Positions 2,419-16,024 of a stretch of 50,830 nucleotides of DNA are shown here, piece by piece (positions within the stretch are counted from its first letter, which is position 1; every line of letters begins with the position of its first letter). Both the position numbers and the translations under genes were made by a program. The stretch comes from Chloroflexota bacterium. Its GTDB lineage: Bacteria > Chloroflexota > Dormibacteria > Dormibacterales > Dormibacteraceae. The stretch spans positions 1 to 50,830 of the forward strand of contig VBHA01000076.1 of the NCBI GenBank assembly GCA_005889495.1. The letters are read 5' to 3'. Below the pieces are notes generated by a model. The model was not told the DNA's origin and did no database searches. It was given only the letters and a program-made list of their open reading frames with translations.

Positions 2419-3311
2419 GTGGATCCCAACGCGCGGTACATCACAGATAAGGAAGAGCCGCCGGCCTCCGGGCCGGAGCGGCGGGTCTTGATCACCGGGG
2501 GAGCCGGCTTCCTGGGCGTCAACGCCGCCATCCACCTGATCAAGGACGGCTGGCACGTCACCCTGCTCGACAACCTCAGCCGCCCGGGTACGGAACGGAA
2601 CCTCAAGTGGGTCATCACCCGGTATCCCAACCGCGTCACCTTCGTCAAAGAGGACGTGAGAAACGCGCCCGGGCTGGCCGAGCACGTGGCCGACCAGGAC
2701 GCCGTCCTGCATCTCGCAGGGCAGGTCGCGGTGACGACGTCTCTGGCCGACCCCGGCACCGACTTCGACGTCAACGCCCGCGGCACGCTCAACATGCTCG
2801 AAGCCGCAAGGGCGCGGCCGACCAGTACGTGCGCGACTACGCCCGCTGCTTCGACATGAACACCGTGGTGCTGCGCCAGAGCTGCATCTACGGCGCCCAC
2901 CAGTACGGGACCGAAGACCAGGGCTGGGTCGCTCACTTCGTGCACTCGATCCTCAAGGAGCGGCCGCTCACGATCTACGGCGACGGCACGCAGGTCCGCG
3001 ACCTGCTCGACGCGCGCGACCTAAGCGCGCTCTACGCGACCGTCGTCGACAAGATCGCGATCACGAAGGGCGAGATCTACAACGTCGGCGGCGGGCCCGA
3101 AAACCAGCGCAACCTGCTCGAGGTCATCGACCAGGTCGGCGAGCTGACGGGCAGGAAGCCGCAGTTCACGTTCGCGGACTGGCGCGAGGGCGACCAGGCG
3201 TACTACGTGAGCGATACCAGCAAGGCGAAGCAGCAGCTCGCCTGGGAGCCGAAGATCGACTTCGACCGCGGCCTGCGCGACCTGATCGCCTGGGCCGAGT
3301 CGGTCAGTTAG
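2419..3311 (+). pseudogene. NDP-sugar epimerase (CDP-paratose/tyvelose 2-epimerase-like) broken by internal deletion and frameshift
   Basis: Two overlapping frames encode the two halves of one extended SDR enzyme. The first half (from GTG 2419, or TTG 2374) has VLITGGAGFLG, LLDNLSRPG and LHLAGQVAVTTSLADP and runs to NMLEAAR. The second half resumes in another frame at KGAADQYVRDYAR and runs through IYGAHQYGTEDQGW, YGDGTQVRDLL and NVGGGPEN to the end. By comparison with the family, about 60-75 residues between them are missing, including the STN strand and the catalytic Tyr of the YxxxK motif. The junction falls in GCAAGGGCG (2806-2814), which fits both reading contexts, as expected for deletion between short direct repeats. 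The protein should be inactive. An assembly collapse is the alternative explanation. Confidence 0.8.
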
Positions 3312-4131
3312 CCCGCGCGCAGGTGAAGTGACCGCAGCCTCCGGGCAGGGCGCGTAGCGCCCGAGCCTCCGCCCACGCGGTCGTCGCCACCGCCTTGCTC
3401 GCGCCGCGCATCACGCGCCCGGCGAGTCCGCCGCGCGCCGCCGACAGGTCCTCGACCGACCCGCTGACCGGTCCCCGCAGGTCCAGCCAGCTGAAGTAAA
3501 GGAGGTCGAGGACCTGGAGGGTGAGGTGATAGCTCCAGCGCGTCCGGGTCACCGGCAGGCCGCACGCCGCCACCATGGCGCGAAAGCGGTCCGCGGAGTA
3601 GGTCTGGATGTGGCCGCAGTGCCGGACCTTCGCTTTCCAGCGCGTGCCGCATCCAACCATCCGATACAACGTCCACGGCTGACCCTCCAGGGGAAGCACG
3701 ATGTGAAATCCGCCCCCCGGTTTCAATACTCGCCCGACCTCGCGCAGCACTGCTTCCGGGTCATCGACGTGCTCGAGCACGTCGAAGATCCAGACAAAAT
3801 CGAGCTCGCCGGCGGCGAACGGCAATCGTTCCGCGGTCGAGATCCGGAAATCGACTTCTTCCGACCCGGCGCCGGCCGCGGCGATCGCGCCCCGGCTCAT
3901 GTCACAGCCGTGGACCTCGAGGTCCGGTCGGGCTCGCTTGACAGCCTTTGCGACCTGGCCCGCCCCGCAACCGACGTCGAGCACGCGGCCGCGCACGGGA
4001 GTGAGGTCCTCCAGCAGGTAGCGCAGCTTCAGCCCGTTCATGTACCACGGCTTCGGGCGCACCGGGGTGGCGCCCCAGCGCTTGGCCTCGTAGTCGAACG
4101 AGGCCGCGGGCGCTAGGGGGCCGTCGCGCAC
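3304..4131 (-). CDS. Class I SAM-dependent methyltransferase
   Basis: The 275-residue product has a typical SAM-binding fold: motif I VLDVGCGAGQV, an acidic residue after strand 2 (HGCDMS), ERLPFAAGELDFVWIFDVLEH around motifs II and III, and LKPGGGFHIVLP. The C-terminal part is less conserved and probably forms the substrate lid. The last gene of the minus-strand glycan operon, it likely methylates a sugar, lipid carrier or related small molecule; the acceptor is unknown. GTG at 4131 is chosen as start, overlapping the upstream gene by 19 bases; a longer in-frame extension is just the shadow of that gene. Its 3' end overlaps the convergent epimerase pseudogene by 8 bp. Confidence 0.85.
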   Translation of the reverse strand: MRDGPLAPAASFDYEAKRWGATPVRPKPWYMNGLKLRYLLEDLTPVRGRVLDVGCGAGQVAKAVKRARPDLEVHGCDMSRGAIAAAGAGSEEVDFRISTAERLPFAAGELDFVWIFDVLEHVDDPEAVLREVGRVLKPGGGFHIVLPLEGQPWTLYRMVGCGTRWKAKVRHCGHIQTYSADRFRAMVAACGLPVTRTRWSYHLTLQVLDLLYFSWLDLRGPVSGSVEDLSAARGGLAGRVMRGASKAVATTAWAEARALRALPGGCGHFTCARAN

Positions 4132-5756
4132 GAGGTCTGGCTCATGGCCGAAAAATCGACCGCATAGACGTCCCAATGAGTCGCCTGGAGAGAGCCGATC
4201 CGCGCGAAGACCGCCGGGGTGAATCGCAGGACAAGCTGCAATTCTTGATCGCCCACGTCGACGGCGATCATCCTGATGTCGTTCTTGCCCATCCAGCACT
4301 GGACCTGCACGTTGACAGCCGCCAAATGGTCTTCATACCGGTAGCCGGACGGCAGATATGCCAGCGGGCTGTACATCTCGCTGACGATGTGCTTGCCCTC
4401 CACGCCTCCGAATCGAGCGAGGACGTACGTGATGTCCGGACGGTCAGGAGGAACGGCGAGGGCGTGGCCGGCGGACGGCGACTCCCTGTACCAACCGGCG
4501 AGCACCCGGCCCTCGGCAGCCGCGGCCTGCCAGGTCGACTCGGTCGGCCCGAACGCGTTGGCGATGGGTACCCAGAGGACCTGCAAGGCGACGATGCCCA
4601 GCACAACGGTCGCCCACGCTGGCGCGATCGATCGAGGTCCGAACCGGCGCGGCACCCACCACACAATGCCTACGACGGCCAGCGTGGCCGCGAACACGTA
4701 GGGAAACTCGAAGTGCCGTCCGATCGGCGTCCACCACGACCAGTCCGCGAGGTATGAGGTGAAGCCCATCAGCCCGGCGGTGAACACCCAGTACCCGAAC
4801 CCGAAGGTCAGGAGCATGTGCGAAGGAGGCCGCTTGACCAGGGCCCACCCCAGGCCGGCCGCTGCGCCCAGCAGGATCGCGCCTAGGGCGGGACGCATGC
4901 CCGCCTGGTAAGCGGTCACGGGCACCTCCCACTTGCCGAGCGCGTTCGCGAGGAAGTTCCACCACAGCGGGTAGATCGGGTTGCCGGTCCGATTCAGCAA
5001 CAGCAGCATGTAGAGCCCGACGACGAGCGCGAAACCGATGACAAGCGGCGCTCGCTGGGGCCGGCGGTCACGCCCGAGGTGGGCGGCCACGACCATGCCG
5101 AGACCGAAGATCCACGCTTCGGCGCGGGCCATGCTCGCCAGCCCAAACGCCGCACCGCTTCGAAAGCCCTTTTGCCGCGTCCATGCCAGGATGCCGGCCA
5201 GGCATAGCGCGATCCCGAGCGGCTCGAGCATGCCGGACGCGTCGTTCATGACGCTGGTCGGCAGCAGGCTCGCCGCAAGCGCCGCCGCCACCGCGGCGGA
5301 CGTGCCCCAGTAGTGGCGGCAGATATGAAAGAGCAGGACGACCGCGGCGACGCCGAAAGCCGCGCTCACGAGTCGGTCGAGAACGATGTCGATGGAGCCG
5401 GTGACGTCGAACACAGCGACCATCAGCAGCGGGTGCAGCACGCCCCAGAAGTAGTCGAGGCCCTTCAGGTCCCAAAGGCGCGGCCCGCCTGGCGCGGTCA
5501 GGCCGATCTCTTTCGTCAGGTACGCGATCTGCCAGTGGTGCCAGACGTCGGTGTAGAGGCCGTCGCCGGGATTCTGCGGGTCGGTGAACACGAACAGGTA
5601 CAGCAGCCTCGGCGCGGCGGCCACCGCGGCGACGGCCGCGCTCCACGTCCAGTGCAGAGGGTGCGGTTCCGGCTCCGGCTCCTCGGGCGTAACCGGGTCC
5701 GGTGAGGCGTCGAGCTCGTCCTCGGCGGCCAGGATCCTCGGCAGACGAAGCTTCAA
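4113..5756 (-). CDS. Polytopic membrane glycosyltransferase-like protein (GT-C/PMT type)
   Basis: This 547-residue protein has an acidic, proline-rich cytoplasmic N-terminus (about residues 10-33), then some ten hydrophobic segments, and a soluble C-terminal region of about 130 residues. The first extracytoplasmic loop carries DGLYTDVWHHWQIAY, in the position where dolichyl-phosphate-mannose-type (GT-C) enzymes have their acidic catalytic loop. It probably transfers a sugar from a lipid carrier outside the membrane. The TTG at 5756 is inferred as start because it forms a TTGA overlap with the upstream stop, like other junctions in this operon, and no better start exists. Family assignment rests on topology and context and is moderate. 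Confidence 0.75.
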   Translation of the reverse strand: MKLRLPRILAAEDELDASPDPVTPEEPEPEPHPLHWTWSAAVAAVAAAPRLLYLFVFTDPQNPGDGLYTDVWHHWQIAYLTKEIGLTAPGGPRLWDLKGLDYFWGVLHPLLMVAVFDVTGSIDIVLDRLVSAAFGVAAVVLLFHICRHYWGTSAAVAAALAASLLPTSVMNDASGMLEPLGIALCLAGILAWTRQKGFRSGAAFGLASMARAEAWIFGLGMVVAAHLGRDRRPQRAPLVIGFALVVGLYMLLLLNRTGNPIYPLWWNFLANALGKWEVPVTAYQAGMRPALGAILLGAAAGLGWALVKRPPSHMLLTFGFGYWVFTAGLMGFTSYLADWSWWTPIGRHFEFPYVFAATLAVVGIVWWVPRRFGPRSIAPAWATVVLGIVALQVLWVPIANAFGPTESTWQAAAAEGRVLAGWYRESPSAGHALAVPPDRPDITYVLARFGGVEGKHIVSEMYSPLAYLPSGYRYEDHLAAVNVQVQCWMGKNDIRMIAVDVGDQELQLVLRFTPAVFARIGSLQATHWDVYAVDFSAMSQTSCATAP

Positions 5757-7981
5757 GCCGTCGCTGATTCCAGTGCCAGCTGCACGTGGGTGCGAGCGAC
5801 GTCGAGGACCGCGCTCTCCATCACGTCGACGTGGCGCTCCCAGTCGAAGCGGCGCGCCCAGGCGTGCGCACGCTCCCCGGTGCGCTGGTTTTCGTCGGGG
5901 TCGTCTAGCAGTGCTGTGATACCCGCGGCGTAGTCGCCCACTTCCAGTGGCTCGGCGAGGTGGCCGGTCCCAGGCCCCACGGTGACCGTCGGCCCGGCCT
6001 GGTCCCACGCCACGACGGGCACGCCCTTGGCCATCGACTCGATCACGCCCATGCCGAAATCCTCCTCCGGCGCCGGGTAGACGTAGACGGCCGCGCCTTC
6101 GTACAGCGTCTGCAGCTCTTCCTCGCTGATCGCCCCCACGAAGAGCACCGCCTCGCCCAGGCCGAGCTCTGCGACCAGCGACTTCATCGAGGCCGTGTGC
6201 GACGTGGGCGGTCCCGGTATCACCAGTTGCGCGCGCGCGTGCTTCCTGCGCACCTCCAGCATCGCCCGGATCGCAAGGTCGAAACGCTTCTGCGGGTAGT
6301 GGCGGTTGGTCAGCAGCACGTACGGCCTGCGCACCGGATAGCCGTTGATCGTCAGGCCGCCCGAGAACCGTGACGCGATCGGCAGCGGAAAACCCGAGGA
6401 CGCCACGTGGCACCCCGCTGGGCAGTCGATCGCGTCGCGCCGGTACGTCTTGCGGATGATGTCGCCGATGTAGTCGCCGTTGACGAGCAGCTGGTCCGCC
6501 TCCTGGATGGAGCGGCGGTCCGCCCAGGCCACGAAGCGTGTCGCTCGGAGCACGATCGCCGCCAGCAGGCGGTAGTCGGCGTTTGACACCCAGCCCGTCT
6601 GGCGGTCGATGTTGCGCGGATAGACCAACCGGTTGGGCTGGTTGAGGTACACCACGTACGGCACGTCCATCAGCCGCGCCGCCCACCAGGCGATCCACGC
6701 GCTCGGCTGGTTGCAGCCGACGATGGCGTCGACGCCGCGGAAGCGCCACGCGTACAGCGGCATCAGGAGAGAGGTCGCGGCCATCTGCACCGCCTCACGG
6801 AACGGGAACCACCGCGGAAGCTGCGGGAGAAAGGTCTTGACCCGGACCTCGCCGATGAGGTCGGGGTAGCAGCGCGTGGCGTCGACGGTCGGCGCGAAGC
6901 ACTCGACCTCGTAGCCGCGCCTGCGCAGCCCGAGCACCTCCTCGATGACGAGCCGCTCGCCCCCGCCCGAGTAGGTGAACCCGCAGTGGAAGACGGCGAT
7001 CCGCCGAAGGCCGCCCGCGCGGGCGCGGCGCCGGCCGCCGACCAGGAAAAAGCTCAGCAGGCCGAGGGCGAGTGCGTTGAGCGCGGTGATCGCGTGGTAC
7101 AGGACGATCGCGCCGGCTGCCACCGCGGGCGCCAGGCCGAGACCTCCGCCCAGGACGAGCGACCCCGCGACTTCGAGGTTGCCCACGTAGCCGGGCCCGG
7201 CCGGGACCGCAAAGCTAAGCAGCAGCGCCGGGTAGGCGGCCATCGCTTTCAGCACGGGCACGTCGATGCCGACCGCCACGAACAGCAGCGTGAAGTTGAA
7301 GGCGTCGATCACGAGCGCAATCGCGGTGAGGCCGGCAAGACGGGCTGCCAGCTGAGGCGTCCACAGGCCGCGGGCGCCCGCCCGGAACGCAAATGCCTGG
7401 CCAGCGAGCGCCGACGCGAACCGCGCGGGCAACAGGCGCCGGGCCGGCGCAGAGCGCGCGACCCGCGGGCCTAGCAACGCCGTCCCCACCACGGCTCCGA
7501 GCAGCGCGATCGCGAGCGCGGCGGCCCCGGCGAGCCCTCGCGGTGCGTTGACCGCGCCGCTCAGCGCCACGACCTCGAGCGCCGCCAGGACCAGGGCGAC
7601 GGCCGCGAGGTCACATGCCTTGTCGATCACGATCGTGGCCAGCGCGGAGCCTGCGGGGATGCGGTGCCTGCGCCACAGCCACCAGGCACGCGCCGCGTCG
7701 CCGGAGCGGATGGGAAGCACGTAGTTGAGCAGGCCGCCCGCGGCGTTCATGGCGAAAGCGCGGACCATGCCCACCGGCGCGAGCGGCCGCAGGAGCAGCA
7801 GCCAGCGCCGGGCCCTGACCACGCTGGTGAACAGGAACAGGACGACCATGAACGCGACCGCCCACCAGTTGTGCACGCGCGCGTGTGTGACGATCTCCGG
7901 CAAGGAGACGGTGCGCAGCCACAGCCACAGCAGGGCCAGCCCGAACGCGGTCTGCATGGCGAGCCTGAGCCAGCGGCTCAT
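5753..7981 (-). CDS. Fusion: LPG-synthase-type transmembrane domain plus GT4 glycosyltransferase
   Basis: The 742-residue protein has two parts. Residues 1 to about 315 form a polytopic domain of the lysylphosphatidylglycerol-synthase TM/AglD type, with RARRWLLLLRPL early on and an SFAVPAGPGYVGNLE motif near its end. After a basic linker (RRRARAGG) comes a cytoplasmic GT4 retaining glycosyltransferase: FHCGFTYSGGGERLV at its start, VLLTNRHYPQKRFDLAIRA in the middle and the nucleotide-sugar site PAPEEDFGMGVIESMAKG. The two are usually separate genes. ATG 7981 overlaps the upstream exosortase stop (ATGA). Coupling suggests the membrane part handles the lipid-linked product of the GT4 part, but transport is inferred only. 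Confidence 0.85.
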   Translation of the reverse strand: MSRWLRLAMQTAFGLALLWLWLRTVSLPEIVTHARVHNWWAVAFMVVLFLFTSVVRARRWLLLLRPLAPVGMVRAFAMNAAGGLLNYVLPIRSGDAARAWWLWRRHRIPAGSALATIVIDKACDLAAVALVLAALEVVALSGAVNAPRGLAGAAALAIALLGAVVGTALLGPRVARSAPARRLLPARFASALAGQAFAFRAGARGLWTPQLAARLAGLTAIALVIDAFNFTLLFVAVGIDVPVLKAMAAYPALLLSFAVPAGPGYVGNLEVAGSLVLGGGLGLAPAVAAGAIVLYHAITALNALALGLLSFFLVGGRRRARAGGLRRIAVFHCGFTYSGGGERLVIEEVLGLRRRGYEVECFAPTVDATRCYPDLIGEVRVKTFLPQLPRWFPFREAVQMAATSLLMPLYAWRFRGVDAIVGCNQPSAWIAWWAARLMDVPYVVYLNQPNRLVYPRNIDRQTGWVSNADYRLLAAIVLRATRFVAWADRRSIQEADQLLVNGDYIGDIIRKTYRRDAIDCPAGCHVASSGFPLPIASRFSGGLTINGYPVRRPYVLLTNRHYPQKRFDLAIRAMLEVRRKHARAQLVIPGPPTSHTASMKSLVAELGLGEAVLFVGAISEEELQTLYEGAAVYVYPAPEEDFGMGVIESMAKGVPVVAWDQAGPTVTVGPGTGHLAEPLEVGDYAAGITALLDDPDENQRTGERAHAWARRFDWERHVDVMESAVLDVARTHVQLALESATA

Positions 7982-8583
7982 GCTTTCCCTGCCCACTCGC
8001 CGGGGAGGGCCAGGGTCGAACGCTCGGCCCCCGGCTGCAAGATCCAGCGCTGGGCGAACGCCCAGAACGCGAAGAGGAAGGCGACGAAAAGGATCGTCCC
8101 GCCATAGTCGTGGAAGAGCACGGCGGGCGTGACCCCGGCGGTCGCCGCGATCCAGGCGACCAGCGCGACTCGCAGCAGGTTCAGCAGCATCGTGCCGGCG
8201 ATCCCGATCAGGACCACCTGCGCGCGCGACTCCACCGAATGTCCGCCGCGAAGACCGGACGTCAGGCTGACGCCGAACAGGATCAGGCTCTGCCAGCCGA
8301 TGCAGTTCCAGGAGATGAACAGCGTGTGCATCGAGCCGGACGCATCCCAGACCACGAGGTGGCTGCCGGACGCGGCGGCGTGGACGCCCGCCAGTCCCAG
8401 GAGGCTCACCACCATCCTCGATTCCGCGGGCACGATCGCCTGGAGCGGGTTGTTGGCGCCGAGCCCCATCGCCCAGGCGGTGAGCAGCTCGTCAAATGTC
8501 GTGACCAGCGGAAGCAGCATCAGCAGCGCGCACGTGATCGCGATCAGCGTGAGGTTGACGTTGTCGCGCTCCCGCGTGGTCAC
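7978..8583 (-). CDS. Exosortase/archaeosortase family transpeptidase
   Basis: This is a 201-residue, multi-pass membrane protein with the exosortase catalytic triad: Cys94 in SWNCIGWQS, Arg138 in NLLRVALV and His158 in LFHDYGGT, each at the edge of a hydrophobic segment as in the family. Exosortases cleave proteins with a C-terminal motif-TM-basic tail on the outer face of the membrane, coupled to extracellular polymer. The WxCxGxQS form and the neighbouring GT2 recall the Gram-positive XrtG type. GTG at 8583 overlaps the upstream GT2 stop (GTGA); upstream residues in frame are shadow. The probable substrate is the C-terminus of that GT2 protein, which carries VPEG plus a hydrophobic stretch and RRRK. 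Confidence 0.85.
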   Translation of the reverse strand: MTTRERDNVNLTLIAITCALLMLLPLVTTFDELLTAWAMGLGANNPLQAIVPAESRMVVSLLGLAGVHAAASGSHLVVWDASGSMHTLFISWNCIGWQSLILFGVSLTSGLRGGHSVESRAQVVLIGIAGTMLLNLLRVALVAWIAATAGVTPAVLFHDYGGTILFVAFLFAFWAFAQRWILQPGAERSTLALPGEWAGKA

Positions 8584-11021
8584 TTCCGTCTCCTGATCAG
8601 CCGGGTCGCGAGCAGCGGGACGAACAGCGCCAGGCCGGCGGAACCGAGGAGTCCCTCGGGGACGACGATGCTCGGTGGCACCAGACCGGTGTTCGCCGTC
8701 CCGGCCGTGCCGTCGTACAGCATCGACGGCTTGCCGCCGGTGTTGTGGGTCAGGGTGACCGACAGGCACAGCGAGCCGCCGGGCGGAATCACCAGCGGCA
8801 GCTGGCTCGCGCTCGTGCTCACGGTCACCGGGCTCGTGGTGTTGGCCGTGTTACCGCCATAGGTCGTCGACCATGTGCTTCCCACGTTCGGGATGATCGC
8901 GACGAAGCCCGCGCAGCTTGCCGTGGCGGAGACGCCGGAAGTGATGCTGACCGAGTCGCTGGTGGCACCCGAGCCGCCCGACCAGTACATCGTGAAGGTC
9001 CATACCCCGGCCGCGACCGTCTGCGCCGGCAGCCCGGTCCACGCCCAGGTGGTGGTGACGCCCCCCGCCGCCGACTGGATCGCGCAGGGCGTTGCCCGGG
9101 TGCCGACGTTCGCGTCCATGGTGCTCGCGGTGCAGCCGGGCGCGGTGCCGGTGCCGTGGAGGTAGAGGGGGTTCCCCGCGGCGCTGACCGTCGGTGCGTG
9201 GGTCGAGGCCGCGGCGAGAGCGCCGAAGATCAGCGCCAGCAAGCCGATCGCCATCCACCCGAGCCAGCGCCTGCGCAACGGTGAGCGCCGGGCGGGCGAG
9301 GCGGCCACGGGGGTGGTCGGAGGTACCCAGAGCTGTTGTCCGGCGCTGCGCCTGCCCCCGAGCCACCTGCGGAGCATGTACAGCCGCCGGAGGTGGCGCA
9401 CGTTGTCCGTGACCCGTCCCGTCTTCGGGGTGCGAAACCATGGACCTTCGTCCTTGCTGATCAGGCCCTTCAGCGCCGCCCACGCCTGGAAGGGGACGAG
9501 CGCGAACGAAAGGACGACGGCGCCGAAGACTCCCTGCACGTCGCGGGCCGGCGCCTCTTCGAGGATCAACCCGCCGAGGTTCATCAGGGGCAGCGCGAAT
9601 ATGTTCGAGAAGAGGAGCGACCATCCGAGCAGCGCGGTCCATCCCGGCACGTGGGTCTGGAACACGACCTCGGAGACGAGCCAGCTGATGGAGCCGACCA
9701 GGAACAGCCCGGCCTGCAGGTAGTAGGTCGAGTCGTAGAGGAACTCGAGCTTCTCGAGCGGGGTGACGTGGGGCGACCGCATGATGGCCAAGAACCATTT
9801 GCGGACGTTGTAGGTGTGGCCCTCCGCCCAACGCATGCGCTGTCGGGCCAGCCGGGCGAACGTGCTGACGCACTCCGCCGGCGTCTCGGCCCATGGCGTG
9901 TAGACCACCTTGTACCCGCGGGCGTAGAGCTTGAGGGTCAGCTCCCAGTCCTCGGTGATGCTGGTCCCCCACCCCACCTCACGCAGCACGTCGGCCCGGA
10001 TCATGTAGGCGGTGCCGGCGATCATCTTCAAGGAGCCGATGGCGTCCTGGAAGGGGCGCTCGATCATGTAGCTGCCGGCGTACTCGGCCCGCACCGCCTC
10101 GGTGAGCCAGCTCTCCGACTTGTTCAGGACATGCCACTGATAGCTCTGCACCGCCGCGACCTCCGCGCGCCGCCTGACCTGGCCTGGCTCGGACGGCGGG
10201 TCCTCCCCTCCGGCAGGGCCGGAAGGGCTACGGCCGAACGCCGCCTCGAAGCGCCTGCTCGCAGTGCCGTCGCTCACGCGGTAGAAGTGAGGGAGCAAGC
10301 GCTCGATCGAGTCGGGGAACGGCACCGAGTCGGCGTCGAAGACGACGACATACTCCGTGCGCGGGTCCATGACCTTGAGCGCCTCGCGCAGCGCCCCGCC
10401 CTTGTAGCCGGCGCGCGATTGGCGGTGGATGATCTTGAGGCGCGGCCACGCCGCCCATCGCTGCAGGATCTGGTCTGACTCGTCGGTCGAGTCGTCGACC
10501 ATCACGACCTCGTACTCGGGGTACTCCAGCTGGGAGAGCGCCGTCAGCAGGCGCTCGATCACGCGCTTCTCGTTGTAGGCGGCGACGTGGACGGACACGA
10601 AGGGGTGATAGCCCAGGTCGATGTGGTAACCGTTGCCGTTGCCGTTGCCGTTGATGCGCTGGCTGCCGTTGGTGTCGGCCTTGGGGTGCCCGTTGGCGTT
10701 GCGCGGCCCGGCGCCGACGAGCGTGGTCAGCAGGACCATCGCCGTGCTCAGGTAGTACTTGATCGCGTAAGCGAAGAAGATGGCGCCGAGAAAGAGCCCG
10801 GCGAACGCCAGGCCGTAGGCCAGCCAATCCGCGCCGCTGCGGATCTTCGACTGCTGGACGAGCTCGACAAAGCCGTGCGCGATGGCGACCATGGGGATCG
10901 CCCCGACGACGAACGCGGCGACGAGGACGCCGTTGAGGGCAACGCTCCAGCTGAGGCTGCCGAGACCGCGTTCCGCCCGCGGTCCCCGGTGGTGAGCCGG
11001 ATCTTCTCCCTGAGCGCTCAC
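8580..11021 (-). CDS. Processive GT2 membrane glycosyltransferase with extracytoplasmic domain and C-terminal VPEG-type sorting signal
   Basis: The 813-residue protein begins with two TM segments (about 26-48 and 68-102) and a low-complexity NGNGNGNG linker. A GT2 domain follows with VDDSTD (176-180), DADS (229-232), TED (356-358) and the processive-type QRMRW (394-398), then further TM helices (430-520). After a basic stretch there is another TM (587-606), an Ala/Thr/Ser/Gly-rich ectodomain with several Cys (616-784), and a tripartite end: VPEG (787-790), a hydrophobic segment (791-809) and RRRK. The N-terminal half should polymerise a polysaccharide from nucleotide sugars. The tail looks like an exosortase target, and the exosortase is the next gene. 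GTG 11021 overlaps the regulator stop. Confidence 0.88.
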   Translation of the reverse strand: MSAQGEDPAHHRGPRAERGLGSLSWSVALNGVLVAAFVVGAIPMVAIAHGFVELVQQSKIRSGADWLAYGLAFAGLFLGAIFFAYAIKYYLSTAMVLLTTLVGAGPRNANGHPKADTNGSQRINGNGNGNGYHIDLGYHPFVSVHVAAYNEKRVIERLLTALSQLEYPEYEVVMVDDSTDESDQILQRWAAWPRLKIIHRQSRAGYKGGALREALKVMDPRTEYVVVFDADSVPFPDSIERLLPHFYRVSDGTASRRFEAAFGRSPSGPAGGEDPPSEPGQVRRRAEVAAVQSYQWHVLNKSESWLTEAVRAEYAGSYMIERPFQDAIGSLKMIAGTAYMIRADVLREVGWGTSITEDWELTLKLYARGYKVVYTPWAETPAECVSTFARLARQRMRWAEGHTYNVRKWFLAIMRSPHVTPLEKLEFLYDSTYYLQAGLFLVGSISWLVSEVVFQTHVPGWTALLGWSLLFSNIFALPLMNLGGLILEEAPARDVQGVFGAVVLSFALVPFQAWAALKGLISKDEGPWFRTPKTGRVTDNVRHLRRLYMLRRWLGGRRSAGQQLWVPPTTPVAASPARRSPLRRRWLGWMAIGLLALIFGALAAASTHAPTVSAAGNPLYLHGTGTAPGCTASTMDANVGTRATPCAIQSAAGGVTTTWAWTGLPAQTVAAGVWTFTMYWSGGSGATSDSVSITSGVSATASCAGFVAIIPNVGSTWSTTYGGNTANTTSPVTVSTSASQLPLVIPPGGSLCLSVTLTHNTGGKPSMLYDGTAGTANTGLVPPSIVVPEGLLGSAGLALFVPLLATRLIRRRK

Positions 11022-11399: not shown

Positions 11400-11659
11400 C
11401 TAATCAAAAAGCAGTCGGAGTTCAGCCCACTATCTAAAGTCGGGCCTTGGGTTTCCAAGAGTGGGGCAGGCACTTTGTCGTTGAAAATGCGCAAAGATCG
11501 ACGGGCTCGTCCTTAGATTTCGTGCCAAACTTTTCAATGCGCCAGTGCGGCGCGTGGGCCTTCAGAAAGGAAAAAGGACCTCATCCTCACTTAGAACCTC
11601 ACCCCCCGCAGCCAAGCTCGGAGCCGGTGTCGAGAAATCGCCCGGCCCGAGCCTTTTTT
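11400..11659 (+). ncRNA. Candidate structured non-coding RNA in the 283-bp gap, exact 5' end unknown
   Basis: The gap 11375-11657 is visibly richer in A and T than its surroundings and holds no convincing gene. On the plus strand it has a series of small hairpins (CTTGG-GTTT-CCAAG at about 11447-11460, GCGCC-AGTGC-GGCGC near 11540-11556, CCTT-CAGA-AAGG near 11560-11572) and ends in a strong intrinsic terminator at 11616-11659. No plus-strand gene lies upstream that would need that terminator, so a short independent RNA is the simplest reading. It matches no RNA family I recognise. The 5' boundary given is a guess. Confidence 0.3.
11616..11659 (+). terminator. Rho-independent terminator facing the plus strand
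   Basis: GCTCGG (11616-11621) pairs with CCGAGC (11647-11652). After one bulged A, GCCGG (11623-11627) pairs with CCGGC (11642-11646). An inner CGA/TCG closes a GAAA tetraloop (11634-11637). One C and six T follow (11654-11659), overlapping the minus-strand rmlD stop. On the minus strand no T-run follows the stem. Confidence 0.7.
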
Positions 11660-12464
11660 ATGGGTTCAACAGTTCGTGCAGGGCCTCGCGCCATGGCCGC
11701 AGGGGCCGAAAGCGGGTGGAGGCGAGGCAGCCGTTGAGGGGACGCCTCGCCGCCGCCGGGTAGCCCGACTTCGGCACCGATTCGACCTCGACCTCTGCGC
11801 CGGTCTCGGCCAGGACGGCGCGGGCGAGCTCGTCCCAGCCACAGCACCCTTCGGCCACGGCGTGGACGATGCCGGCAATCCCCTGCTCCGCAAGCTCCAC
11901 CGCCGCACCGGCGAGGTCTTCGGCGGAAGTCGGGTTGACGCGCTGGTCGGAGACGACTCGCAGCGCTTCGCCCGCTCGCGCCCGCGCCAGGATGCGCATC
12001 GGGAAGCTCTGCGGTCCGCCGTAGACGGCCGCAGTCCGCACCACCAGGACGTGCCCGCCGGCGTGGAGCACGCCCTGCTCGCCGGCCAGCTTCGTGCTGC
12101 CGTAGACCGAAAGCGGGATGGCTTCGTCGGCTTCGGTGTACGGCTCGACGCTATTGCCGTCGAACACGAAGTTCGTCGAGAAATGGACCAGCGACGCTCC
12201 GGTGCGCCGGCATGCGACCGCGATGTTCTTCGGCCCGTGGGCGTTGACCGCGAAGGCAAGGTCACGCTCGACTTCCGCGCGGTCGACAGCGTTGTAGGCC
12301 GCGCAGTTGAACACGACGTCGGGGCGGCGCGCGTCGATCAATGAGGAGACGGCGCCGGCGTCCGTGATCGAAAGTTGGGCGTGAGGCACGGCGGTTTCTG
12401 TCCCGAGCAGCCGGACCAGCTGCGTGCCGAGCTGGCCGCCCGCGCCCAGCACGAGGGCTTTCAA
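11658..12464 (-). CDS. rmlD: dTDP-4-dehydrorhamnose reductase family protein (RmlD-like)
   Basis: The 268-residue short-chain dehydrogenase probably reduces dTDP-4-keto-rhamnose, the last step to dTDP-rhamnose for surface glycans. The nucleotide-binding motif is GAGGQLGTQL near the N-terminus. VVFNCAAYNAVDRAE is the typical RmlD signature, followed by VHFSTNFVFDG and the catalytic Tyr/Lys in SVYGSTKLAGE. The family is usually 280-300 residues, so this copy is a little short. TTG at 12464 overlaps the stop of the upstream c-di-GMP gene (TTGA). Neither rmlA, rmlB nor rmlC is in the window, so assignment to rhamnose rather than a related sugar is probable, not certain. Confidence 0.8.
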   Translation of the reverse strand: MKALVLGAGGQLGTQLVRLLGTETAVPHAQLSITDAGAVSSLIDARRPDVVFNCAAYNAVDRAEVERDLAFAVNAHGPKNIAVACRRTGASLVHFSTNFVFDGNSVEPYTEADEAIPLSVYGSTKLAGEQGVLHAGGHVLVVRTAAVYGGPQSFPMRILARARAGEALRVVSDQRVNPTSAEDLAGAAVELAEQGIAGIVHAVAEGCCGWDELARAVLAETGAEVEVESVPKSGYPAAARRPLNGCLASTRFRPLRPWREALHELLNP

Positions 12465-15400
12465 ACCGACTGGGTCAGCGTTTCCGGCGGTATCTGGAGG
12501 ATGCCGGCCTGCTGCCGGAGGAACGCGGTGATCTCCTTCTCCTCGACGGGCCTACCGACCAGAAATCCCTGCGCGGCGTCGCAGCCCGCCTCCACCAGCA
12601 CGGTCTCGGCGAGCCGGTCCTGCAGTCCCTCGGCGACCACACGCAACCCCAGGTTGTGGCCCAGCCCCACCGCCGAGCGGACGATCGCGCCCGAGTCGGG
12701 GTCCGTGGCCAGCGCCGACACGAACGAGCGGTCGATCTTGATCTCGTGCACGGGCAGGCGCATCAGATAAAGGAGAGAGGAGTAACCGGTCCCGAAGTCG
12801 TCAAGCGCGATGCGGACCCCGATCTCGTGCAGGCGGTGCAGCGCCCTGGCCGCGGCCGCGGCCATCGCGACTCCTTCGGTGATCTCGAGGGTCAGCCGGG
12901 TCGGCTCGACTTTGAAGTTGCCGAGCGCGCGGGCGACCATCTCCTCGAGCGAGTGGTCTTCGATGTTGCGTGGGGAGACGTTCAAAGAGACGCTGACATC
13001 GATGCCCTCGGCCTGCCACCGGCACAGCTGCTCCAGCGCCGTGTCGATCACCCAGGCGGTGAGCGGGTGGATGATCCCGGTCTCCTCCGCCATCGGGATG
13101 AAGCGGTCGGGCGGCATCAGGCCCTCCCGCGGATGGTTCCAGCGGATCAGCGCCTCGACCACTCGGACCGCGCCGGTGGCGAGCGTGACCTGCGGCTGGT
13201 AGTGCAGCACGAGCTCGCCCTGCGGGATCGACCTGCGCAGCTCGCCGGCGAGGCCGGAGCGCCGTAGAGTCTGCGTCTCGTGCTCGGGCTGATATAGCGC
13301 GAATCCGCCACCGGAGCGCTTGGCCACGTACATGGCGACGTCGGCGCGCCGGAGCAGCGTGCTCGGATCGTCTCCATGCACCGGATACAGCGCAATCCCG
13401 ATCGACGCGCCTGTCTCCACCATCTGGTCGCCGATCGCAAACGGCCCCTCGAGCGAGGCGAGGATCTTCTTGGCGGTCCCGAGCACGTCCTCCGGGTGCC
13501 TCGCGTCGGTTGTCAGGACGGCAAACTCGTCGCCGCCCAGGCGCGCGATGGTGTCGGTCGCGCGCAGGACGCCCCGCAGACGGGCGGTGACCTCCTGCAG
13601 AAGGCTGTCGCCGCGGTCGTGTCCGAGAGCGTCGTTGATGTCTTTGAACCGGTCGAGGTCGAGCAGCAGCACGCCGAACATCTTCTGGTTGCGCCGCGCC
13701 GCCAGCAGCGCCTGGCGCAGGCGGTCGCCGAAAAGGCTGCGGTTCGGCAGCCCGGTCAGCGCGTCGTGGAGGGCCTGGTACTCCAGCGCGTCGGTGTGGG
13801 CCTTCCGCTCCGAGATGTCGCGCAGGGTCGCGATGAAGAGATGTCGCGCGCCGACCTGCATCGAGCTGACGACGAACTCGAGTGGAAAGAGGCTGCCGTT
13901 CTTCCGCTTGCCCATCGTCTCGTGAGAGCCGCTGACGGGGATATCCACCGACAGCCGGCGCTGCAGGTAGTTGTCGAACGCGCTCCGGTGCGTGGTCGCG
14001 ATCAGGATGCTCGCCTGCTCGCCGATGAGCTCGTGGTCGGAGTAGCCGAAGAGCTTGCCGACCGCGGGGTTGGCGGAATCGATGATGCCTGCCTGGTCGA
14101 TCGTGGCGAGACCGTCGGAGACGTTGTCCAGCACGGAGCGCATCCGCTTCTCGCTTTCCTGCAGCGCGACCTCGGCGCGCTTCCGCTCGACGAACTCGCC
14201 GATCTGCGACCCGACGTCGTTCATGACCGCGACCAGGCCGTCGTCCAGGTCGCGCGCGGCCCATGTGTGGAGCGAGATCATGCCGACGACTCGGCGGCCG
14301 CTGCGCACGGGAAACCCGACGATGCCGTGCAGCCCCGACGCGACCGCCGCCGCGGCGCGCGGCGATGTGTCGCCGGCGAGGTCGGGCATGGCCATGGGCT
14401 TGCCCGCCTCCCACACCTTTCCGGCCAGGCCCTCTCCGCGCCTGTAGGCATGGCCGGCGGCAGTCGCCTCGAACGCGGTCGTGTCCCGCCCAGGTCGCTT
14501 CCACGACGTGACGAAGTGCATGGCTTCGCGGTCGAGGTCCACCTCCCAGTACTCGGCGAGCTCCCAGTCGAGCGCGCGGCAAAGGCCCTCGAGCACGCCC
14601 GGAGCCGCCTTCTGCCAGCCAGGCGACGTCACCAGCGCCTGGGTCACCGCAAACCTCGCCGCCTGCAGGACCTCGGCGCGCTTGCGGTCGCGGATGTCGA
14701 CGGTGACCGTCTGGAAATAGCCCGGTCGCTGGTCGGCTCCACGCACCAGGCGCATCGTCAGGTCGACCCACACGTGCTCGCCGTCCTTCCGCGTGTAGCG
14801 CTTCTCGATGCGGCGCCCCTCGTCCTCGCCGGCGAGCATCGAGTGCATCGCCTCCTGCAAGGCCACGACGTCGTCGGGATGGGTGATGTCGAGCAGCGAC
14901 AGGGTGCGGAGCTCCGTCTCGCTGTAACCGACCAGCTCGCAGAACGCCGCGTTCACCGTCGTGATGTGGCCGTCCAGGCTGGCGAACGCCATGCCGGCCT
15001 GGGCCTGCTGGAAAAGGGTTCGGAACCTCGTCTCGGTCTCGTGCTCGGCGGCCTCGGCCCGCAGCTTCGCGCTGATGTCGCTGACCAGCGTGAGCAGCTG
15101 GTCCGGCCGTGTCGCGACGCGGTGGATGGCGACGTCGACTTCCACCCGCCGGCCGGCCTTGTCGATGATCGCGGAACGGTACCGGGGCGGCGCGTCGCCG
15201 CCCGACAGCCGCCGGGTCAGGTTGGCGGCCAGCAGGTCCCTGTCTTCTGGAGGGGCCAGGTCGATCAGGGACGGCAGCGCCGTCAGCTCTTCGCGCGTGT
15301 ACCCCGTGAGCTGGACGTAGGCGTCGTTGCCGACGACGAAGCGGCCGTTTTCTGTGATCACAAGGCCTTCGCCAAGGTCGCTGAGGGTCGCCAGGAGCGT

Positions 15401-16024
15401 GCTCTGCCGCTCGACCTGGATGCCGAGGTCGCGCTCGATCGTCCGGCTGGTGAGGAAGGCCAGGATCCCGAGCCCGACCAGGATCAGCGTCCAGATCGCG
15501 ACCGCCGTGATCGAGACCATCAGCTGTGTGACCGAGTAAAGCCAGAGGAGCCCCAGCGCGACGATGGCGACCGCGAATACGTAGCCAAAGCTGCGAGAAC
15601 GGAGCCCGACGTCGAACTGGAGGAACACGGCCGCGAAGCTGATCGCCGCAAACGGGGGCAGGTCGTCGCCCAGCCAGCGCCCGGCCACAGCGAAAACCAG
15701 GACGGCGAGGGTCGCGGCGGCGGCCATGATCGGGATCTGCACGGCCAGCCGGGAGGCGTACCTGGACGCGCGCGCGGCCACGGCGAAGGCACCGAGGACG
15801 ACGCCCAGGCCGATCAGCAGCGCCTCTTCTCGGAGGATGTCCTGGGGCAGGTGCGCCTGCCACAGCCGGTAGGTGACACCGCCTATGACAGCGGCCACCG
15901 CGAGGCCATTGACGAGGGGCAGGGTCCAGCGGCGCGCCGGCCGGGGAAGCCCGACCGCCGCCCATGCGGCCCCGAACAGAGGGTCGGCCGCGGCTCCAGG
16001 GGACAAGCTCAGCTGTTCAGCCAA
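12461..16024 (-). CDS. Membrane-bound PAS-PAS-GAF-PAS-GGDEF-EAL c-di-GMP turnover protein
   Basis: The 1187-residue protein has six or seven TM helices (about 33-205), a PAS domain (215-325), a second PAS (335-455, with RDRKRAE at its end), a GAF domain (465-615), a third PAS (625-750), GGDEF (755-915) and EAL (930-1180). The GGDEF motif is intact (RLGGDEFAVL, about 826-835) and so is the EAL motif (VEALIRWNHP, about 955) with DDFGTGYSS, so both cyclase and phosphodiesterase activity are possible. The start is TTG 16024, preceded at 8 bases by TATCGT, with no Shine-Dalgarno sequence. Upstream of and coupled to rmlD, it likely links an input signal to exopolysaccharide output. Confidence 0.93.
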   Translation of the reverse strand: MAEQLSLSPGAAADPLFGAAWAAVGLPRPARRWTLPLVNGLAVAAVIGGVTYRLWQAHLPQDILREEALLIGLGVVLGAFAVAARASRYASRLAVQIPIMAAAATLAVLVFAVAGRWLGDDLPPFAAISFAAVFLQFDVGLRSRSFGYVFAVAIVALGLLWLYSVTQLMVSITAVAIWTLILVGLGILAFLTSRTIERDLGIQVERQSTLLATLSDLGEGLVITENGRFVVGNDAYVQLTGYTREELTALPSLIDLAPPEDRDLLAANLTRRLSGGDAPPRYRSAIIDKAGRRVEVDVAIHRVATRPDQLLTLVSDISAKLRAEAAEHETETRFRTLFQQAQAGMAFASLDGHITTVNAAFCELVGYSETELRTLSLLDITHPDDVVALQEAMHSMLAGEDEGRRIEKRYTRKDGEHVWVDLTMRLVRGADQRPGYFQTVTVDIRDRKRAEVLQAARFAVTQALVTSPGWQKAAPGVLEGLCRALDWELAEYWEVDLDREAMHFVTSWKRPGRDTTAFEATAAGHAYRRGEGLAGKVWEAGKPMAMPDLAGDTSPRAAAAVASGLHGIVGFPVRSGRRVVGMISLHTWAARDLDDGLVAVMNDVGSQIGEFVERKRAEVALQESEKRMRSVLDNVSDGLATIDQAGIIDSANPAVGKLFGYSDHELIGEQASILIATTHRSAFDNYLQRRLSVDIPVSGSHETMGKRKNGSLFPLEFVVSSMQVGARHLFIATLRDISERKAHTDALEYQALHDALTGLPNRSLFGDRLRQALLAARRNQKMFGVLLLDLDRFKDINDALGHDRGDSLLQEVTARLRGVLRATDTIARLGGDEFAVLTTDARHPEDVLGTAKKILASLEGPFAIGDQMVETGASIGIALYPVHGDDPSTLLRRADVAMYVAKRSGGGFALYQPEHETQTLRRSGLAGELRRSIPQGELVLHYQPQVTLATGAVRVVEALIRWNHPREGLMPPDRFIPMAEETGIIHPLTAWVIDTALEQLCRWQAEGIDVSVSLNVSPRNIEDHSLEEMVARALGNFKVEPTRLTLEITEGVAMAAAAARALHRLHEIGVRIALDDFGTGYSSLLYLMRLPVHEIKIDRSFVSALATDPDSGAIVRSAVGLGHNLGLRVVAEGLQDRLAETVLVEAGCDAAQGFLVGRPVEEKEITAFLRQQAGILQIPPETLTQSV

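Follow-up and report, generated by a model that had tools for sequence, protein, structure and literature searches.

The question raised by this locus is whether a membrane polysaccharide synthase can carry, on its own C-terminus, the sorting signal processed by the exosortase encoded directly behind it. The window (the whole stretch of 50,830 nucleotides that was analysed, from a soil bacterium) encodes an 813-aa protein (8580..11021, minus strand) in which a GT2 synthase, an ectodomain and a VPE tail are fused, and full-length homologues were found in the same genus and family. The GTG start was kept as in the earlier note, and its exact position is uncertain. A frame or assembly error as the source of the fusion was ruled out by full-length, one-frame homologues in many genomes. 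The catalytic domain (residues 137-402; 9816..10613, minus strand) contains DD, DAD, TED and QRMRW, and the invariance of D176/D177, D229-A-D231, T356-E-D358 and Q394-R-M-R-W398 in 30 aligned homologues bears out the full processive GT2 motif set reported previously at these positions. C-terminal to QRMRW lies W-F-R-T-P-K-T-G (residues 528-535), whose F-R-T-P-K-T-G part (529-535; 9417..9437, minus strand; R530 to G535 invariant in 30 homologues) occupies what we take to be the position of the cellulose-synthase gating loop. The best Foldseek matches of the predicted fold were BcsA (E 6.8e-18) and hyaluronan synthases (E 3e-14 to 1e-11). The GT2 part is probably a membrane polysaccharide synthase of the cellulose/hyaluronan-synthase class, with a polymer product inferred at the family level. 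The window protein shares the motif set and predicted fold of BcsA and hyaluronan synthases, but it adds a C-terminal exported jelly-roll and a sorting tail, and it does not reach the equivalog cut-offs of known synthases (PgaC 92.9 vs 422.3 bits, CelA 61 vs 699.1 bits).

Beyond W-F-R-T-P-K-T-G, the protein continues with an Arg-rich linker, a helix, a beta-rich ectodomain, V787-P-E-G, a hydrophobic helix and RRRK. The tail (8583..8663, minus strand; helix at 789-812 in the structure model) has the PEP-CTERM-like layout of motif, hydrophobic helix and basic end at the extreme C-terminus of the GT2 protein, as had been described. Across 25 aligned tails, P, E, one Gly and one Pro in the helix are invariant. 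The motif originally given as VPEG is retained as far as VPE, which is conserved as [V/I/M]PE; the G is variable (S, A, L, F, H and Y also occur), and VPEG as such was rejected. The window tail matched neither a literal Pro-Glu-Pro motif nor a curated tail model. A profile of the tail gave 38 matches at E<1e-10 in 31 of 61 related genomes, and in 37 of these 38 the frame holds GT2 sequence or is cut by a contig end. In the window's own genome the GT2 protein is the sole significant match (E 1e-17), with the next match (E 0.07) covering just a generic helix. A separate protein with the same motif, raised in the earlier note as the possible sole product of cleavage, was thus not found by the tail profile, nor was any second, unlinked exosortase substrate, although one could have been missed since the genome is 86.7% complete. 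The sorting signal is not exclusive to the polymerase, since G060 encodes one complete stand-alone ectodomain-tail protein of 287 aa and G209 a tailed 698-aa frame with no GT2 match; G060 also has a second ectodomain-tail frame whose start is cut by the contig. The idea of a polymerase with its own exosortase-type signal is supported for the GT2 tail and its dedicated exosortase.

The exosortase gene (7978..8583, minus strand, GTG start) encodes a divergent exosortase that scores 34.0 bits against TIGR04178 (exosortase/archaeosortase), above the curated cut-off of 23. C94, R138 and H158, which we take to be the catalytic residues, are invariant in 31 of 31 aligned exosortase sequences. In the archaeosortase ArtA, the Cys is described as the active site (PMC7157517). 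None of the named NCBIfam exosortase classes reached its cut-off for the window enzyme (best thaumarchaeosortase, 32.5 vs 250 bits), and none of 10 distant relatives reached that of any named class either, which suggests that the enzyme belongs to an unnamed class. The system resembles the exosortase/archaeosortase family (PEP-CTERM, PGF-CTERM) in its TIGR04178 score, its Cys/Arg/His and the motif-helix-basic tail of its predicted substrate, but it differs in that a polytopic polysaccharide synthase supplies this substrate as its own C-terminus, in the [V/I/M]PE motif, and in the lack of a named Xrt/Art class. The exosortase does start inside the GT2 stop codon, with GTG at 8583-8581 and TGA at 8582-8580 forming a 4-nt GTGA overlap (8583-8580). 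A 4-nt NTGA overlap is present in 40 of 52 GT2-exosortase pairs, and the two window genes are apparently translationally coupled through it.

The layout of GT2, ectodomain and tail followed by exosortase recurs in Chloroflexota, Patescibacteria and archaea. Among 101 genomes, 35 had both ectodomain/tail and exosortase and 3 + 3 were discordant, counts that are not independent since the homologues are related; the six comprise one contig cut, two weak matches, one diverged ectodomain with the tail present, and two exosortase remnants. An exosortase retained where the tail is absent, which had been put forward as evidence against the pairing, was seen in just G004 and G019 of these 101 genomes, and both of these exosortases are truncated remnants. 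Of 400 genomes of the phylum, 20 had this GT2 and all 20 had the exosortase, and 3 further genomes had the exosortase (one holds a remnant, and in the other two the locus is cut by the contig but the tail is still visible). Among the 25 GT2 matches of the phylum genomes, the tail was seen in 22, once beyond a break in the frame, and the other 3 are truncated where the contig stops. However, three tailed GT2s had no exosortase in the DNA examined: C13 and C94 of G209, the latter contig stopping 0.7 kb beyond the GT2, and C122 of G244, in which the tail sits in another frame.

The reverse comparison covered 88 exosortase ORFs in 79 loci, of which 47 lie directly behind a tailed GT2 and 8 more behind another tailed ORF, whereas only 63 of 6,694 closed frames in those loci have such a tail. 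One caveat is that the strict tail rule overlooked 30 of the 88, and these were re-read by eye. For 14 of them a tail was seen directly or within about 0.7 kb upstream (L195 second, L197, L198, L199, L203, L207, L208 second, L211 second, L214 twice, L220, L221 second, L222 and L227 second), some with VDE, VPD or VSE instead of VPE, and L175 also has a tail that the strict rule missed. Fifteen had no tail directly or within 0.7 kb upstream in the DNA examined (L185, L188, L192, L201 second, L204, L205 twice, L210, L212, L215, L218, L223, L224 and L225, both with the GT2 downstream, and L226 second). L185 has a tail-like stretch that is not at the frame end, and L210 has a tailed frame about 1 kb upstream. 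L220 and L226, with GT2 and tail in separate frames, and L214 were considered as unfused pairs and dropped as evidence, because their frames overlap inside the signal or ectodomain and a frameshift is as likely.

Comparison of two genomes of one genus, G033 and G022, gave identities of 86% for GT2, 67% for the linker and signal-like helix, 31% for the ectodomain, 42% for the tail, 52% for the exosortase and 88% for the gene after the exosortase. Judged from these sequences, ectodomain, tail and exosortase vary as one cassette between the two genomes, which is the one clear case on which cassette exchange rests. The partial correlation of ectodomain and exosortase divergence given GT2 is 0.77, or 0.46 without G022, and its permutation values are not probabilities since the sequences are related. 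From co-occurrence, cassette exchange and the conserved catalytic residues, we infer that the exosortase processes the GT2 protein's own tail, with a probability of roughly 0.85.

The region that such processing would deliver had been called an Ala/Thr/Ser/Gly-rich domain; a C-terminal ectodomain is present, but it is better described as a predicted jelly-roll (residues 615-786; 8664..9179, minus strand) on the basis of the structure model and Foldseek. Ectodomain and tail had no NCBIfam or Pfam match. Foldseek aligned the window ectodomain with the PepX_C jelly-roll, the C-terminal domain of CocE (E 1e-4, TMq about 0.5), although PF08530 gave no Pfam match. Among archaeal relatives, L216 matched PF08530 at E 3.3e-7 and L208 at only 0.14, and no match was found in L209 or in three exosortase-borne copies of the ectodomain. 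In Bathyarchaeota, even an exosortase bears the same domain and tag as the GT2 fusion. Four sequence-profile matches of the ectodomain in the PDB were weak and short (best adenovirus fibre, E 0.006) and were judged to be chance.

The extra transmembrane segment noted before the ectodomain is present as a helix (residues 583-607; 9201..9275, minus strand) behind the Arg-rich linker, but it looks like a cleavable signal sequence with a conserved A-x-A-like site (V612-S-A614 / A615; 9177..9188, minus strand). In all 30 homologues residue 614 agrees with the loose -3/-1 rule, as does no other position within 560-790. Taken by itself the rule is weak evidence, since its strict form is satisfied in 28 of 30 at residue 614 and in 29 of 30 at positions 309 and 382, inside the conserved catalytic part. 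The conservation of the A-x-A-like site suggests that signal peptidase also cuts the GT2 protein there, and with such a site conserved between GT2 and ectodomain the mature polymerase may lack the tail altogether. LtaS of Staphylococcus aureus, an LTA polymerase cut by SpsB (PMC10865820), is comparable in that a polymer-making membrane enzyme exports its C-terminal domain, which follows a signal-peptidase site, but its exported part is the catalytic domain, and the available text of that source mentions no sortase-type tail. An odd number of helices between QRMRW and RTPKTG would place the ectodomain inside, and the modelled count (435-453, 463-488 and a kinked 492-521; pLDDT 70, pTM 0.55) leaves the topology open.

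The model proposed here is a two-gene synthase-sortase unit. The GT2 part would make the polymer and pass it through the membrane, and the peptide would run on through the signal-sequence-like helix, placing the jelly-roll ectodomain outside. The exosortase would recognise the VPE tail and cleave or transfer there, and signal peptidase would probably cut the A-x-A-like site, as SpsB does in LtaS. Such a polyprotein would give rise to an ordinary synthase and, in a 1:1 ratio, to a sorted surface domain delivered where the polymer leaves. The new C-terminus of the ectodomain would be joined to a lipid, to a glycolipid from the neighbouring GT4-flippase/GT-C genes, or to the polymer, with a lipid or glycolipid acceptor at least as likely as the nascent polymer. 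The operon neighbours, all on the minus strand, are an LPG-synthase-type TM flippase domain fused to a GT4 glycosyltransferase (5753..7996), a PMT_2-type GT-C membrane glycosyltransferase (4113..5759, start approximate), a SAM-dependent methyltransferase (3304..4074, start approximate), RmlD, the dTDP-4-dehydrorhamnose reductase (11658..12464), and a PAS/GAF-GGDEF-EAL cyclic-di-GMP protein (12461..16024). The explanation as a whole is held at slightly better than even odds, and the full picture, with a second cut added to tail processing, at about even odds.

Its main competitor, which we consider rather unlikely, is that the synthase stays whole: the exosortase alone would cut, the last helix would be swapped for a lipid or polymer link, and the ectodomain, still attached to GT2, would act as its integral exit or binding module, in the way BcsB does for BcsA. 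A jelly-roll fold fits this, as do a weak structural match to chain B of the cellulose synthase entry 5eiy (E 0.024), which we take to be BcsB, and conservation of the fusion over long distances. Additionally, inspection by eye showed poorer A-x-A sites in the distant archaeal members L208 and L221, so cleavage by signal peptidase may not extend to all members. On the other hand, the A-x-A-like site stays the same although conservation of the adjoining helix is the lowest among nine regions (36%, against 60% at the site), that helix has only about 14 hydrophobic residues in homologue L085, and the ectodomain and tail occur as a stand-alone protein in G060. Less probable again is a link, made by the exosortase, between the ectodomain and the polymer that its own synthase produces, which would cap the polysaccharide with protein or anchor the chain. 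The polymerase is physically fused to the sorting substrate, the genes are coupled by the GTGA overlap, and exosortases were first noticed beside exopolysaccharide genes, an association described since 2006 (PMC1569441), but the acceptor chemistry is not readable from sequence and the best-studied relative, ArtA, is tied to lipid (PMC7157517). A tail that serves simply as a membrane anchor, with some other protein of the genome as the target of the exosortase, is very improbable, since a hydrophobic helix with basic residues is typical of any single-pass C-terminal anchor but the invariant PE-Gly-Pro pattern, the lack of a second tail in the 86.7% complete genome, the joint variation of tail and exosortase while GT2 does not vary, and the genome-level co-occurrence of GT2 and exosortase all speak against it.

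The polyprotein model has partial parallels in known systems. The XrtG system of Firmicutes, as far as the source describes it, comprises a Firmicu-CTERM protein, XrtG and two glycosyltransferases (PMC12854382), and like the window it has one exosortase, one tagged protein and glycosyltransferases at a single locus, but its tagged protein has a gene of its own instead of being fused to the GT2. Assignment to the XrtG/XrtP systems was rejected on scores below the cut-offs (XrtG model 17.7 vs 102.75 bits, XrtG-associated GT2 model 31.0 vs 363.95). ArtA cleaves HVO_0405 of Haloferax volcanii, also the product of a gene fusion, but at a central site, and the available text presents a strain-specific fusion and names no polymerase (PMC7157517). 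A literature search found no description of a GT2 synthase with its own exosortase tag.

The recurrence of the same gene pairing in distant bacteria and archaea suggests a physical coupling between the export of polymer and the sorting of proteins. To our knowledge, the attachment partner of bacterial exosortases and the reason they are sited beside polysaccharide genes are open questions. The predicted tag on a membrane synthase would extend sorting tags beyond secreted proteins. Chloroflexota, Patescibacteria and archaeal genomes can be annotated with a search pattern made of a GT2 containing R-T-x-K-[T/S]-G, then a helix resembling a signal sequence, then an end of [V/I/M]PE, helix and basic residues. 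The window's genome has a single substrate, a single polymerase and a single enzyme, fused or apparently coupled in translation as a minimal unit, so two genes suffice to test the attachment question. It is proposed tentatively, at somewhat less than even odds, that these pairs represent an ancient cross-domain class of sorted synthases, in which the coupled exosortase is dedicated to the synthase's own exported C-terminal domain, and one translated unit makes a polymer and delivers a covalently anchored protein at its exit, possibly onto the polymer. If this is true, the acceptor would supply the connection long sought between exosortases and exopolysaccharide.

The minus-strand frame at 8580-11021 encodes an 813-residue protein (P0001) in which both Pfam and NCBIfam place a GT2 domain at residues about 137-402. 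The GT2 motifs named in the earlier note were found at the positions it gave and are invariant in 30 homologues. The closest NCBIfam synthase was PgaC/IcaA, with 92.9 bits against a cut-off of 422.3, while the CelA model gave 61 bits against a cut-off of 699.1, so the window GT2 is none of the named synthases. When the whole fusion was modelled (mean pLDDT 70, pTM 0.55), its best PDB match was E. coli BcsA (E 6.8e-18), followed by further BcsA entries and hyaluronan synthases. GT2 domains of 21 aligned relatives are 48-82% identical to that of the window, and this synthase very likely makes a polymer. In the model, helices and an Arg-rich linker come behind the catalytic part; then follows a beta domain flanked by one helix at 583-607 and, on its C-terminal side, the last one at 789-812. 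Under the positive-inside rule, two basic stretches, the Arg-rich linker and the RRRK at the end, point to an ectodomain outside the cell. This agrees with an R-T-P-K-T-G sequence at what is presumably the place of the cytosolic gating loop in cellulose synthases; in the model, the kinked helix 492-521 could be read either way.

Asn-Gly repeats (GNGNGNG; 10631-10712, minus strand, residues about 104-130 of P0001) sit in the cytosolic linker ahead of the catalytic domain and are longer in several homologues. Two Chloroflexota homologues (L196:4550-7912 and L200:4724-7888) have an N-terminal response-regulator receiver domain, joined in L196 by an MshEN domain, which suggests a synthase under direct signal control. 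In two Patescibacteria GT2 frames (L207:3032-7957 and L220:3250-5868) the N-terminal part matches IS481/IS3-type transposase regions in NCBIfam, which may give these membrane synthases a domain for DNA binding or regulation.

The GTG start of the exosortase gene (7978-8583, minus strand) overlaps the GT2 stop codon, just as had been read from the sequence alone, and 40 of the 52 GT2-exosortase pairs examined share this 4-nt overlap. The enzyme matches the exosortase/archaeosortase signature (34.0 bits against a curated cut-off of 23) and falls under the cut-off of every named exosortase class in NCBIfam. An alignment of 31 exosortase sequences shows no change at Cys94, Arg138 or His158, the expected catalytic residues. 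The gene order is GGDEF-EAL protein, RmlD, GT2 fusion, exosortase, flippase-GT4, GT-C and methyltransferase, and it is kept wholly or partly in many relatives. The flippase-GT4 protein (5753-7996, minus strand) fuses an LPG-synthase-type transmembrane flippase domain to a GT4 glycosyltransferase, is 80-88% identical across five loci compared, and could be the enzyme that makes a glycolipid acceptor.

The tail was described in the earlier note as a VPEG signal; in 25 aligned tails the P and E are indeed invariant, as are one Gly and one Pro of the helix, but the fourth letter G varies. Run on 61 related genomes, a tail profile matched 38 times with E <1e-10, these matches being spread over 31 genomes; the best of the remaining matches was at E 0.004. 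The window's genome has a single match (E 1e-17); the second best there (E 0.07) covers only a generic helix, and no significant match other than the GT2 was found in that genome, including in a 1,506-residue protein with fibronectin type III and BNR-like repeats (30723-35243, minus strand). In 37 of the 38 matches the frame holds GT2 sequence or runs into a contig end; the remaining match lies in a complete 287-residue frame with its own signal-like helix (G060 contig C137).

Tail, synthase and exosortase also occur together. In 101 genomes the ectodomain/tail (E<=0.01) was found in 38 and the exosortase (E<=0.001) in 38, with both in 35. The ectodomain-only genomes are G031, whose contig breaks off within the GT2 gene, and G097 and G098, which have weak matches with an internal stop. 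Among the exosortase-only genomes, G030 has a tail in locus L095 with an ectodomain too diverged for the search, and G004 (L105) and G019 (L106) have exosortase remnants that lack the Cys region, with no neighbouring GT2, consistent with joint loss. When 400 genomes of the phylum were searched with profiles (GT2 E<=1e-60, exosortase E<=1e-10), GT2 was found in 20 and the exosortase in 23, including all 20 with GT2; the three extra genomes are G019, with its remnant, and G025 and G034, where contigs start inside a GT2 gene whose tail is still visible. The 20 genomes hold 25 GT2 matches, 22 tailed (G244 C122 across a frame break) and three truncated where the contig ends (G008 C115, G362 C104, G244 C5). 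For three tailed GT2s the available sequence contains no exosortase (G209 C13, G244 C122, and G209 C94, whose contig stops 0.7 kb beyond the gene), and it therefore seems that several GT2s can share one exosortase.

Two genomes of one genus, G033 and G022, are 86% identical in the GT2 part, 67% in the linker and signal-like helix, 31% in the ectodomain, 42% in the tail, 52% in the exosortase and 88% in the next gene. In ectodomain and exosortase, G022 is about evenly distant from all the other 25 loci (27-34% and 45-53% identity). These sequences are most simply read as a joint replacement of ectodomain, tail and exosortase. Across the 26 loci, ectodomain and exosortase divergence remained correlated after GT2 divergence was removed (partial r 0.77; 0.46 without G022; 0.45 in the 16 closest loci). 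None of 2,000 label permutations reached the observed values, a count that is not a probability because the sequences are related. The apparent exchange and the joint divergence are the strongest sequence evidence that the exosortase reads the tail, and we put the probability that it cuts the tail at about 85%.

A scan of named genomes, in which 79 loci were kept from 108 confirmed relatives, found the arrangement in Chloroflexota in the wide sense (Chloroflexi, Dormiibacterota, Anaerolineae and Dehalococcoidaceae records), Patescibacteria, Bathyarchaeota and Terraquivivens. Many of these loci come from genomes already in the co-occurrence counts, which makes the two sets of counts dependent on each other. 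Because its seeds were GT2-linked exosortases, the scan says nothing on how frequent the link is among exosortases at large. The 79 loci contain 88 exosortase ORFs: 47 lie directly behind a GT2 with its own tail, 6 behind a 5'-cut tailed ORF, 2 behind another tailed ORF and 3 at a contig edge, and 30 failed the strict tail rule. Half of those 30 still have a tail (14 by eye plus L175), and in the other 15 none was found directly upstream or within 0.7 kb. Tailed closed frames numbered 63 of 6,694 in these loci and three overlapping stretches. In five Bathyarchaeota loci (L208:6572-7993, L211:3892-5313, L221:5081-6466, L227:1938-3350, L215:2774-4192) an exosortase-family enzyme has a signal-like helix, a jelly-roll-like ectodomain and a V[P/S]E tail of its own. 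This ectodomain and the one on the neighbouring GT2 are homologues (blastp E 8e-24, 7e-41 and 6e-20 in three loci compared), and four of the five enzymes stand downstream of a tailed GT2 and are followed by a second, plain exosortase.

Ectodomains vary greatly in size and sequence among relatives. Residues 601-813 were modelled well separately (pLDDT 85, pTM 0.78) and matched cocaine esterase CocE and related hydrolases in Foldseek (E about 1e-4, query TM-score about 0.5). Because the query is a single jelly-roll, the match should fall on the C-terminal jelly-roll of these hydrolases. The Bathyarchaeal relative L216 matches PF08530 (PepX_C) at E 3.3e-7; of two other relatives tested, one gave E 0.14 and the other no match. 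Little common sequence is left between bacterial and archaeal modules, that is, ectodomain plus tail. Profile comparison of Dormibacterota and archaeal modules nevertheless aligned the jelly-roll end and tail over 65 columns (probability 95.9, E 5.9e-9), and by this alignment the tail end is common to bacteria and archaea, as the fold probably is. Long insertions in two ectodomains (L100:504-3821 and L101:2-1552) make the module extensible. Directly behind a tailed GT2 frame on G209 C13 is a 698-residue frame that has a VVPEG tail but does not match GT2 (L282:5999-8092), a candidate second kind of substrate. Together with the 287-residue frame of G060, it suggests that the module can exist as an ordinary secreted substrate.

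Exosortase/PEP-CTERM is described as an exopolysaccharide-linked sorting system for secreted proteins (PMC1569441), and an XrtG locus mentioned for Lactiplantibacillus has a separate CTERM protein and two glycosyltransferases (PMC12854382), a similar parts list to that of the window but unfused. The fusion protein HVO_0405 is cut by ArtA, whose substrates receive a lipid (PMC7157517). No report of a glycosyltransferase with an exosortase-type tail was found in the literature searched, though the central 2012 exosortase paper may mention one.

A second processing site may lie ahead of the ectodomain. Residue 614 (V612-S-A614 | A615) fits the loose -3/-1 rule for signal peptidase I in 30/30 homologues, the only such position in 560-790, and the strict rule in 28/30. 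Taken alone the rule is weak, as 29/30 satisfy its strict form at each of two positions inside the conserved catalytic part. Of nine regions compared, conservation is lowest in the helix that precedes the site (mean pairwise identity 0.36, against 0.60 for the site region). The hydrophobic stretch before the ectodomain of L085 has only about 14 residues, a usual length for a signal sequence but short for crossing the membrane. In distant archaeal members the signal-peptidase sites are poorer. Overall, cleavage by signal peptidase as well is somewhat favoured. The lipoteichoic acid polymerase LtaS, which signal peptidase cuts behind its membrane part (PMC10865820), is a precedent for a synthase cut in this manner. 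Given the conserved site beside a variable helix and the short stretch in L085, we favour reading the GT2 fusion as a putative polyprotein, in which signal peptidase would free the ectodomain from the GT2 and the exosortase would process its end.
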